The notes beneath the pieces were generated by a model. That model worked only from the letters and a program-made list of their open reading frames with translations. It was not told where the DNA came from and searched no databases. Shown piece after piece: positions 3,502 through 6,458 of a stretch of DNA of 64,000 bases. Made by a program: the position numbers and the translations under genes. The stretch is from a bacterium (GTDB lineage: Bacteria > Pseudomonadota > Gammaproteobacteria > Pseudomonadales > Moraxellaceae): assembly GCA_029945725.1 (NCBI GenBank), contig JAQSDB010000003.1, positions 189,842-253,841 of the forward strand. Reading direction: 5' to 3'. The stretch's first letter is position 1, and every line of letters begins with the position of its first letter.

Positions 3502-3518
3502 TCAGGCAGTTGATCCCG

Positions 3519-3548
3519 TAAAAAAGCCGGCGCAAGCCGGCTTTTTTG
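3519..3548 (+). terminator. Rho-independent terminator after serA
   Basis: AAAAAGCCGGC-GCAA-GCCGGCTTTTTT begins 18 nt after the serA stop: a short GC stem with flanking A and T runs, able to act in both directions. Confidence 0.9.
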
Positions 3549-3631
3549 TTTCTGCGTTTTACGCATGCCATGCGGAATTCAAGGCGCCCGCTCGAACAGG
3601 GCATTCCAGCGGAATTACAGCCCCTATCGTA

Positions 3632-3679
3632 TAGCTTCCCAAGCTAGAGCCGTGGGTTCGATTCCCATCGCCCGCTCCA
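3632..3679 (+). pseudogene. Severed 3' fragment of tRNA-Gly(CCC)
   Basis: TAGCTTCCCAAGCTA followed by the variable region, T-arm, acceptor 3' strand and CCA is identical to the 3' part of the intact tRNA-Gly at 6385-6458. The upstream sequence (cccctatcgta) does not supply a D-arm or a GCGGGCG 5' acceptor strand, so no tRNA can fold. It lies on the opposite strand to the intact gene. Confidence 0.9.
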
Positions 3680-3883
3680 GTTTATTCCGTTGTTAATCCA
3701 CGAAAACTCAGGGTCACGGGATCATCGCAAGGATGGTTCGACGGGCACTGGTAAGAGTTTTTGCGGACCTTGAACGATGCAGGCCCAAGACGGCTGCCCC
3801 CAAGATTACCTAACTTGCTATGGGGCCAATATCTCTAAATGGTCTAGTTTGGATTTAACCGCTGTTTTCATATAGGCGACCCC

Positions 3884-3917
3884 AGCGCTAGGCGCAGTAC
3901 TGGCGCTGCATAGCGCT
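3884..3917. repeat. Nested palindrome inside the left arm
   Basis: AGCGCTA and TAGCGCT flank an inner CAGTACTG palindrome bordered by GCGC on both sides, forming a 34-nt imperfect cruciform or hairpin. The identical copy is at 6147-6180. The shape would suit a recombinase or replication-initiator binding site, but nothing in the sequence identifies the protein. Confidence 0.5.
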
Positions 3918-3944
3918 CATACAATCCAAGGGGTTTTGGTGGAT

Positions 3945-3973
3945 TTGACAGATACCTGAAACGGACTGATATT
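3945..3973 (+). promoter_or_regulatory. Candidate sigma70 promoter straddling the repeat boundary
   Basis: A consensus -35 TTGACA forms the last six bases of the left repeat arm. Exactly 17 nt later the unique interior has GATATT, which matches 4 of 6 positions of the -10 consensus. Transcription would run into the ATPase-TOPRIM gene with a leader of roughly 118 nt. The right arm ends in the same TTGACA facing inward but lacks a -10-like hexamer at the proper distance. Confidence 0.5.
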
Positions 3974-4097: not shown

Positions 4098-6029
4098 ATG
4101 ATAGTTGGAATATTTCTTAGGTATATAAAAACTTACCAAGGCATTAACTACATTCCCATCACAGATGAAGACGGATTTTGTGGGCTTGTTGGGGACAATG
4201 GAATCGGAAAGAGCTCTGTACTTGAGGCATTGGACTGCTTCTTTAACTCAAAGGCTTGGAACTACAACATAGCAACACGCAGAAGAGGATTGGCAGACGC
4301 TAAGCCACAAATCGTTCCGGTTTTCCTTATAGAGCGAAATAAATTGGAGGGTGAACCTGCGCAGCTTGCGCAGCACCTGAGCGATGTCGCAGTAGCCGCC
4401 GAAGCTACGGACGTAGCTCTTTCATATCGCGCTGATATGCAAATCTTTATACAGCATAGAAATGCACTCCGGATGCATATTAACCTGGATAATTACTATC
4501 TTCTTCCTCTTGGCATTGATTACAGTAACGCCATTAGCGTTTCGTTTTTGAATTGTCGCTTACTTGTTGACCGCATATTGGAAGGTGTGCCAGAAGAAGG
4601 GAAAACAACCTTAGACGCCTCCGAACTTGATAGATTTAAGCCGCTCCTTGACAAGGTCAAAAGCATTTTCGAATACATCTACATACCTAAAGATATAGAT
4701 ACAGCTGCATTTACAAAGCTAGAGACCGACGAGATACAGGCCCTAATGGGCGAATCACTGAACGAGATTCTAGAGGCTCGAGTTCCTGCTTCGCAAATTA
4801 CTGAGATCAATCGAAGTCTGAATGAATTTATTGAAACGCTTTCGACTGAGTTAGATGGATACTCGTATAGAACACCAACGGATCGCCAGCAAAACCTAAA
4901 AAAGAATGATGTATACAACCTAATTACGCAGGCATTTTTCAACATACGCAGGCTTCACAAACGCCAAGGTGATAATTGGCTTGAGATTAGCAATCTTAGC
5001 TCTGGTGAAAAACAAAAAGCCATCATTGATGTCGCACGCAGCCTCATTATCAGGCATAGAACTGGCGCAGAGCACCTCATTATCGGAATCGACGAACCTG
5101 AGGCGTCTCTTCATATGTCGGCATGCTTTGATCAATTCGATTCAATTTATCAAATTAGCAGATCGTGTAGGCAGCTAATATTTTCGTCGCATTGGTACGG
5201 ATTTTTCCCAACCTCCGAAACAGGAAGTGCCTCAATAATCTCGAAGAACCAAGATGGGCATATTGTAGACTCAGTTAACTTGGGGCGCTACAGAGAGCAG
5301 GTTCGGCAAATGGTTACAGGCACACAAGGGGTTATGCCATATGATATTCGCTTGAAGAGCATAAATGACCTTGTTCAATCCATTATGGCTAGCGTAATTG
5401 GCGACCAACCATTTAATTGGCTTATCTGTGAGGGGTCGTCGGAGAAAAAATATTTCGCCGCCTACTTCTCCGATTTGATTTCTTCTCACAGGTTGCGAAT
5501 AGTTCCTGTGGGTGGCGCGAAAGAGATTAAGAAAATATATAATCACCTTGCAACAGCTTACGAAGACTTCAGGAATGAAATTTCCGGAAAAATTATCCTT
5601 GTATCTGACACTGATGCGAACTTGGTTAGATATGAAACTGAAGCCTTTGAAAGGCTAATATGTAAACGAATTGTGAGCTGTCAAACCGATCAAACAACAA
5701 AATTAGTTGGCATAAATGCAAATCCCTCTGCGCCAGAAACGGAGATCGAAGATGCCCTCAATGGAGGATTGTTTTTAGATACATTGAGAACATTTCAGGG
5801 CGAATATGCTGATCTTGCATTTCTTAATGATGTTACTTGTCACAACCCAGATGCTGTTTGCTCCTTTGCTCTTGATTTGCTTGGAAGCCAGAGACTTATC
5901 ATTAAAAGTTTTTTCGACCACGGGAATAATAAATATGAATTTTCTCGGAGATATGCTGAAGCATTGACTCCTCAGCATGCAATACCTCCTTGGATTAATC
6001 AGATTAGGGACGCATTTACGAGGCAATAA
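4098..6029 (+). CDS. OLD/PARIS-like ABC-ATPase with C-terminal TOPRIM nuclease domain (putative phage defence)
   Basis: A 643-residue protein. The N-terminal ABC/AAA ATPase shows Walker A GDNGIGKSS (32-40), ABC signature LSSGEKQ (about 300), Walker B LIIGIDEPEASLH (about 328-340) and an H-loop His in FSSHWYG. The C-terminus has TOPRIM features: the acidic motif LICEGSSEKKYF (about 440), a glycine motif VGGAKEI (about 472) and DxD in LVSDTDAN (about 502). This order matches class 1 OLD nucleases, GajA of Gabija, and PARIS in which AriA (ATPase) and AriB (TOPRIM) are fused. No UvrD-like GajB follows, so classical Gabija is unlikely. The gene is clearly AT-richer than its neighbours. It stands alone inside the inverted repeat. 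Anti-phage activity is inferred from family, not shown. Confidence 0.82.
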   Translation: MIVGIFLRYIKTYQGINYIPITDEDGFCGLVGDNGIGKSSVLEALDCFFNSKAWNYNIATRRRGLADAKPQIVPVFLIERNKLEGEPAQLAQHLSDVAVAAEATDVALSYRADMQIFIQHRNALRMHINLDNYYLLPLGIDYSNAISVSFLNCRLLVDRILEGVPEEGKTTLDASELDRFKPLLDKVKSIFEYIYIPKDIDTAAFTKLETDEIQALMGESLNEILEARVPASQITEINRSLNEFIETLSTELDGYSYRTPTDRQQNLKKNDVYNLITQAFFNIRRLHKRQGDNWLEISNLSSGEKQKAIIDVARSLIIRHRTGAEHLIIGIDEPEASLHMSACFDQFDSIYQISRSCRQLIFSSHWYGFFPTSETGSASIISKNQDGHIVDSVNLGRYREQVRQMVTGTQGVMPYDIRLKSINDLVQSIMASVIGDQPFNWLICEGSSEKKYFAAYFSDLISSHRLRIVPVGGAKEIKKIYNHLATAYEDFRNEISGKIILVSDTDANLVRYETEAFERLICKRIVSCQTDQTTKLVGINANPSAPETEIEDALNGGLFLDTLRTFQGEYADLAFLNDVTCHNPDAVCSFALDLLGSQRLIIKSFFDHGNNKYEFSRRYAEALTPQHAIPPWINQIRDAFTRQ

Positions 6030-6113: not shown

Positions 6114-6432
6114 TGTCAAATCCACCAAAACCCCTTGGATTGTATGAGCGCTATGCAGCGCCAGTACTGCGCCTAGCGCTGGGGTCGCCTATATGAAAAC
6201 AGCGGTTAAATCCAAACTAGACCATTTAGAGATATTGGCCCCATAGCAAGTTAGGTAATCTTGGGGGCAGCCGTCTTGGGCCTGCATCGTTCAAGGTCCG
6301 CAAAAACTCTTACCAGTGCCCGTCGAACCATCCTTGCGATGATCCCGTGACCCTGAGTTTTCGTGGATTAACAACGGAATAAACTGGAGCGGGCGATGGG
6401 AATCGAACCCACGGCTCTAGCTTGGGAAGCTA
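6114..6432 (-). repeat. Right arm of perfect 319-bp inverted repeat
   Basis: Reverse-complement copy of 3632-3950 with no mismatch. Its outer end lies inside the anticodon stem of the intact tRNA-Gly(CCC). Between the ATPase stop (6029) and this arm there are 84 nt with no recognisable terminator. The inner palindrome copy is at 6147-6180. Confidence 0.97.
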
Positions 6433-6458
6433 GGGTATTGCCATTATGCGGCGCCCGC
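6385..6458 (-). tRNA. tRNA-Gly (anticodon CCC)
   Basis: Complete cloverleaf on the minus strand with encoded CCA. The acceptor GCGGGCG pairs with CGCCCGC, the discriminator is T, the anticodon stem CTAGC/GCTAG encloses TTCCCAA (anticodon CCC), and the T-arm is GTGGG-TTCGATT-CCCAT. The D-stem GCAT/ATAC has one apparent C-A mismatch. The 3' part from the anticodon stem on is shared with the inverted repeat. The gene reads GGG codons; whether other tRNA-Gly genes could cover for it lies outside the window. Confidence 0.92.

Follow-up and report, generated by a model that had tools for sequence, protein, structure and literature searches.

Units between inverted tRNA-Gly(CCC) halves, with probable phage-defence cargo, in a genus of the Moraxellaceae

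The unit described here lies beside serA in the window, by which is meant the whole stretch of 64,000 nucleotides of a Moraxellaceae genome that was analysed. It measures ~2.8 kb end to end, carries one gene and is bounded by two long terminal inverted repeats (TIRs) whose arms are spaced 2.2 kb apart (Table 1). The outer tip of each arm is the 3' half of a tRNA-Gly(CCC) gene. At the right end this half belongs to a formally intact tRNA gene, and at the left end it stands as a fragment.

Table 1. Features of the unit and its left margin, in window coordinates.
Feature	Position	Strand	Basis or remark
Left outer arm ('D arm'); interpreted as P-type arm of a putative left attachment site	3594..3631, limits approximate	+	likeness to G005 and G004 arms
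tRNA-Gly(CCC) 3' half, anticodon stem to CCA (fragment)	3632..3679	+	100% identical to 6385-6432, minus strand
Left terminal inverted repeat, including tRNA half	3632..3950	+	exact 319-bp inverted repeat; motif ~64 nt past CCA
Genus-wide TIR motif, window variant GGGCACTGGTAAGAGTTTTTGCGGACC	3740..3770	+	CCA offset equal to that in sister units; weak own score
Cargo gene, 643-aa AAA ATPase with C-terminal TOPRIM motifs, predicted OLD-class	4098..6029	+	Pfam, PADLOC, homologue context, GC
Right terminal inverted repeat	6114..6432	-	exact reverse complement of 3632-3950
tRNA-Gly(CCC), formally intact, foreign type, extra to native gene	6385..6458	-	ARAGORN; Rfam 46.8 bits; type comparison

A preliminary description of this DNA had reported that the tRNA-Gly 3' fragment is inverted relative to the intact gene, and this holds: the two 48-nt halves face each other without a single mismatch. 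The halves are only the tips of a perfect inverted repeat, which continues for 271 bp beyond the tRNA sequence. Identity is 100% over the 319 bp and drops to background within a few bases on both sides, the outer edge being at the anticodon stem and the inner one past position 3950. A perfect inverted repeat of this length, with arms 2.2 kb apart, is far beyond chance, and the first 14 kb hold no other inverted repeat better than 31 nt at 71%. No further copy of the repeat was found in its own genome or in 146 relatives, the latter searched with the 280-nt inner repeat. Could the repeat be a fold-back artefact of the assembly? This is unlikely, because the arms enclose a unique open reading frame and because the same architecture, with other cargo, is present in independently assembled sister genomes. 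Rfam detects a single tRNA in the unit (6388-6458). A 'tRNA-Val' called by ARAGORN at 3584-3679 was rejected; it is a chimera of the tRNA-Gly fragment and unrelated upstream sequence. Further upstream, at 3503-3579, Rfam gives weak matches below its threshold (BSnc120, Thr_leader), which fall on the serA terminator hairpin.

The only open reading frame between the arms encodes an ATPase-TOPRIM protein. It is matched by the Pfam families AAA_15 (3e-20) and AAA_21, and by the PADLOC profiles AriA (1.3e-21), Old (5e-11) and GajA. Its motifs, the Walker A sequence GDNGIGKSS followed by IDEPE, CEGSSE and SDTDA, are largely invariant in three homologues. The protein thus has both the ATPase and the TOPRIM catalytic motifs by which the OLD class is recognized, and it shares with OLD, Gabija GajA, the retron Eco8 effector and PARIS AriA an N-terminal ABC-type ATPase with Walker motifs and a C-terminal TOPRIM-like E..DTD. 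Unlike these systems, however, it has no partner gene in the cassette, and its profile similarity to any one of the named systems is only weak. A homologue of 58% identity is located on an Acinetobacter plasmid, between pglX and pglZ of a BREX-1 locus. Judged by its motifs, its profile matches and the setting of this homologue, the product is probably an anti-phage protein of the OLD class. An AlphaFold model was of too low a quality to be used (mean pLDDT 53), and the retron Eco8 effector chains that head its list of structural matches are no more than suggestive. The gene is AT-rich, with 42% GC as against 60% in the flank.

Where did the tRNA gene of the unit come from? The window genome (G000) has its native tRNA-Gly(CCC) at a conserved locus (G000:C3:502198), with upstream genes that are common across the genus, and the 3' half of this native gene is of the AGATAGCG type. 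The 5' and 3' halves of the window's own gene are both of the TAGAGCC type, which is that of sister species and is found in G003 and G005. The serA flanks of six sister genomes contain no tRNA-Gly. The foreign type, together with this absence beside serA, therefore suggests that the tRNA-Gly of the window probably arrived with the unit or with an earlier insertion. An empty site was sought at serA and at the neighbouring kinase gene, where gene order is not conserved; the order next to serA is different in every sister genome examined, and the empty site is for this reason not readable base by base. The tRNA gene has C at position 8, a position nearly always occupied by U in tRNAs, as well as other changes in its 5' half, and given these substitutions it may not be functional.

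The tRNA half served as a lead to sister genomes of the same genus, in which the same inverted architecture surrounds different cargo. In G003, an inverted repeat of 179 bp encloses a type II-A retron, with a reverse transcriptase (1.6e-93) and an NDT effector (2.2e-46). This unit sits at the native tRNA locus, which is not the orthologue of the window site. Its far copy resembles a whole tRNA-Gly (92% over 74 nt), and the repeat runs through the entire tRNA-like copy and ~25 nt upstream of it, at an identity below that of the inner part. In G004, a Moraxellaceae MAG, a repeat of 235 bp encloses a ThiF operon downstream of the 3' end of ssrA (tmRNA), a gene that was identified by eye from this end. 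The unit lies immediately downstream of the apparent ssrA 3' end (L027:5300-5475, on G004:C9); ssrA is a classic integration hotspot. At a second locus of the same genome two units are stacked at an intact tRNA-Gly, one with a NACHT-type ATPase and then one with an RmrA-like protein, and where the two meet the tRNA halves have been lost. Partial units are found at contig ends in G005, G007 and G002, which is what one would expect of short-read assemblies if these break at long repeats, and the far copies in G005 and G002 keep tRNA-like 5' halves.

The architecture, with different cargo, is thus present in at least four genomes and at unrelated loci: the native tRNA locus, beside serA and downstream of ssrA. 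Repeat identity across the units ranges from 87% to 100%. Each arm consists of the tRNA-Gly(CCC) 3' half from the anticodon stem onwards, followed by 80 to 270 nt that contain a shared motif. At native loci one end always rebuilds a complete tRNA. The far ends vary in kind: some are decayed tRNA, others P-like. Two tRNA-Gly halves in inverted orientation less than 20 kb apart were found in this genus only, both in 349 family genomes and among the matches listed for 369 class genomes. There is a strong case that the window unit is one of a family of such units. Their cargo, as annotated from the predicted proteins, appears to be mostly known or probable phage defence.

Do the arms share anything besides the tRNA half? 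Beyond it they differ between units, and what recurs is a motif close to ACTGTTAAGACTTTTATGC at a near-constant distance from the CCA, usually 64 to 66 nt. In leave-one-out tests the motif was clear in G003 when this genome was held out, and also in G002:C89, which was never in the training set. In the window the best position of the motif has this offset too, but the copy is weak and its score by itself does not reach significance. The motif model matches six of the nine genus genomes, and in 369 class genomes it finds only weak matches that are judged to be chance. Among ten TIRs from G004 and G005, five contain the module GTTTCGATAGTTGGCC. A second arm-type repeat in the TIR, sought with a motif profile test, came near significance in one unit only. 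In G004 the same TIR motif is also present after a second, different tRNA-Gly(CCC) isogene (L055:1-240, on G004:C4), and the ends are therefore not tied to one tRNA sequence.

The boundary of the repeat at the anticodon stem is also the place where dozens of viral tRNA-Gly(CCC) attachment sites end. The same tRNA-Gly half, beginning at the anticodon loop, lies next to the integrase genes of phages pAN and Anatole. Among 80 viral stretches that contain the half, roughly one in two has a 5' side that is not tRNA from the anticodon stem outwards; in sequence such stretches resemble attP or attR sites, and the left end of the window unit looks alike. Anticodon-centred sites are one of the common classes of integration into tRNA genes (PMC4383910), and the fragment ends at this known integrase core, at the anticodon stem, as phage attP sites do. 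What then is the sequence outside the left core? When the D arm was compared with the outer arm of the G005 unit (C16:1), the best score was above all 500 shuffles, and a weaker likeness, also above shuffles, was found to a G004 outer arm (right end of L028). Its likeness to tRNA 5' halves does not exceed that of shuffles, and against the viral P arms tested it does no better than shuffles.

No recombinase is encoded in any unit examined. When 30 integrases of the genus were compared with the units, there was no match better than E 0.05, and no integrase with an attachment site in the tRNA-Gly(CCC) half was found in the genus, nor was one found in or beside the units. A search for an autonomous copy yielded no recombinase-bearing relative; it covered 146 relatives for the 280-nt inner repeat, viral and genome contigs for the motif, and plasmids and phages for the TIR. 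The phages, plasmids and viral contigs searched gave no match to the TIR motif. A search of the literature found no description of inverted tRNA-ended cassettes.

How might such units move? The reading that we prefer, and to which an even chance may be given, is that the window unit is a non-autonomous defence cassette set between two inverted attachment sites of a tRNA-Gly-specific tyrosine integrase, and that it is moved or exchanged in trans. Each end of a unit would be an attachment site of an integrase specific for tRNA-Gly(CCC), with its core at the anticodon arm and with the P' arm directed inward at both ends. At one end the core would be joined to the tRNA 5' half, which would give a complete tRNA gene there; at the other its partner would be a P-type arm or a decayed tRNA. 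An integrase from a phage or an integrative element, acting in trans, could then insert, exchange or invert the module at such sites, in analogy to XerCD acting on inverted pdif sites in Acinetobacter. What is observed is the inverted architecture, found again at other loci and around other genes, together with a tRNA of foreign type, an edge at the usual integrase core and no recombinase gene; the low GC content of the cargo also favours this reading. From these comparisons we infer the action of a tyrosine integrase on the ends, the roles of the arms and the movement in trans. If recombination is site-specific, the junctions of excised, inverted or swapped forms would be expected inside TAGCTTCCCAAGCTA. 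Attachment sites of this kind present two difficulties: a double-stranded DNA circle that joins both ends would contain a long perfect palindrome, and the overlap TTCCCAA is not self-complementary, so that the two ends of a single unit should recombine poorly unless overlap mismatches are tolerated. Against this reading also stand the failure to find a matching integrase in the genus, or the TIR motif in phages, plasmids and viral contigs, the weak motif copy of the window, the mixed kinds of far end, and a D arm unlike the viral P arms tested.

The strongest rival is passive homologous exchange between inverted tRNA copies. An old inverted duplication of tRNA-Gly would have become a hotspot where cargo is swapped by homologous recombination, gene conversion keeps the inner parts identical, and the unused outer tRNA half decays. 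The G003 unit is consistent with such a history, as its repeat covers the whole tRNA-like copy and upstream nucleotides at a lower identity than the inner part, and so is the spread of repeat identity from unit to unit. Passive exchange accords less well with units at several unrelated loci, with a window tRNA of foreign type, with a window repeat that is perfect up to the anticodon stem and breaks off to background exactly there, or with a left outer arm that is common to several genomes and is not tRNA; we consider it unlikely. Transposition by a DDE enzyme is quite improbable. TIRs of a MITE-like element or DDE-type transposon that captured a tRNA end, served by a transposase in trans, would explain why the units have terminal inverted repeats and no internal transposase, occupy several loci and can be stacked. 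However, no convincing target-site duplication is seen beside 3632 or 6432 (as judged by eye on the occupied site), the ends coincide with a known integrase core and not with arbitrary sequence, and one end always rebuilds the tRNA at native loci.

Is the left fragment perhaps nothing but the remnant of a convergent, full tRNA-Gly gene? The preliminary description had pointed to a sister genome with two convergent full tRNA-Gly genes as the sign of such decay, and part of this picture is found. The G003 far copy is tRNA-like over its whole length, so that some far ends go back to a full tRNA copy; the tRNA-like 5' halves kept in G005 and G002 are in keeping with this. The G003 copy, however, lies at a native locus. 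For the window a decayed second tRNA is disfavoured and very unlikely: the repeat takes in a further 271 bp past the tRNA, and what precedes the left copy on its 5' side is like the far arms of units in G005 and G004, not like a tRNA 5' half. A one-off inverted duplication beside the tRNA, by template switching or replication slippage and with no mobility, would be a simple account of a perfect long inverted repeat, but it is disfavoured and hardly credible given that at least four genomes have this architecture around different cargo, together with a conserved motif and the same boundary. Of the three histories initially proposed (terminal inverted repeats that each captured the tRNA end, inversion between attachment sites, and template switching), the first fits best, because the repeat extends well past the tRNA and because such arms recur on other units of the genus; one-off template switching is left unsupported.

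How does a cassette between inverted attachment sites, the preferred reading, compare with known elements? Like tRNA islands and prophages with a tyrosine integrase (Islander class A, anticodon-loop), the window unit has a core that begins at the anticodon arm and extends as far as the tRNA 3' end, and one of its two ends carries a complete tRNA. Unlike them, it has its displaced fragment in inverted, not direct, orientation, it contains no integrase gene, and it is a small unit with a single gene. It had been argued at the start, and rightly, that an ordinary tyrosine-integrase island would leave its repeat in direct orientation and that another history was needed here. Islander discards opposite-orientation fragments and candidates without an integrase (PMC4383910). 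The dif modules of Acinetobacter, recombinase-less modules between inversely oriented sites (PMC13141974), offer another parallel. These pdif modules of plasmids and chromosomes, which depend on XerC/XerD, belong to the same bacterial family, carry cargo that is often short and of a single function, and are stacked. In architecture the window unit agrees with them, its cargo lying between inversely oriented sites and lacking a recombinase gene, and the ends may be active recombination sites. The recombinase of dif modules acts in trans, which for the units described here is only a supposition, and these units end in tRNA-Gly(CCC) halves whose long arms point inward, where dif modules have 28-bp dif sites; a search of the window that allowed up to 3 mismatches found no dif-like 28-bp XerC/XerD site. 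Other tyrosine-recombinase elements with terminal inverted repeats are SE, RIT, GInt and Tn554 (PMC10214605). Their inverted repeats are short and they carry genes for two to three recombinases, whereas the units described here encode none and end in tRNA. In Thermococcus, the tRNA-specific integrase Int-pTN3 has been shown to invert the DNA that lies between oppositely oriented tRNA sites, tRNA-Gly genes among them (PMC5495485), but this system is archaeal, its inversions are of chromosome scale, and it has no tie to cargo modules.

Site-specific cargo modules are a known kind, and a new class is a possibility if mobilization in trans holds. Such a class, undescribed so far, would comprise defence cassettes with two inverted tRNA-derived attachment sites and inward P' arms, shuffled between species by the integrases of resident phages or integrative elements; we put it forward tentatively, as somewhat short of an even chance. 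If true, members of the genus would pass single defence systems to one another as small modules, which would rely on phages or other integrative elements for the machinery of integration at tRNA-Gly(CCC). Lone retrons, OLD-class nucleases and the like would then have a concrete way to move without a mobility gene. Standard island searches would then have a blind spot, and such modules would be systematically missed, because island finders drop inverted tRNA fragments and integrase-less candidates.

Two further observations concern individual sister units. In G005, a two-gene cargo (L052:937-3442, on G005:C16) lies between tRNA-Gly remnants; its products of 505 and 325 amino acids have no match in NCBIfam or PHROGs, and the pair is a candidate for an unknown defence system. 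At L028:7911-8140 (G004:C9) two units are fused back to back. The tRNA halves are absent at this junction, and what is left is a long imperfect palindrome and a terminator-like hairpin, as if the centre of the palindrome had been deleted.
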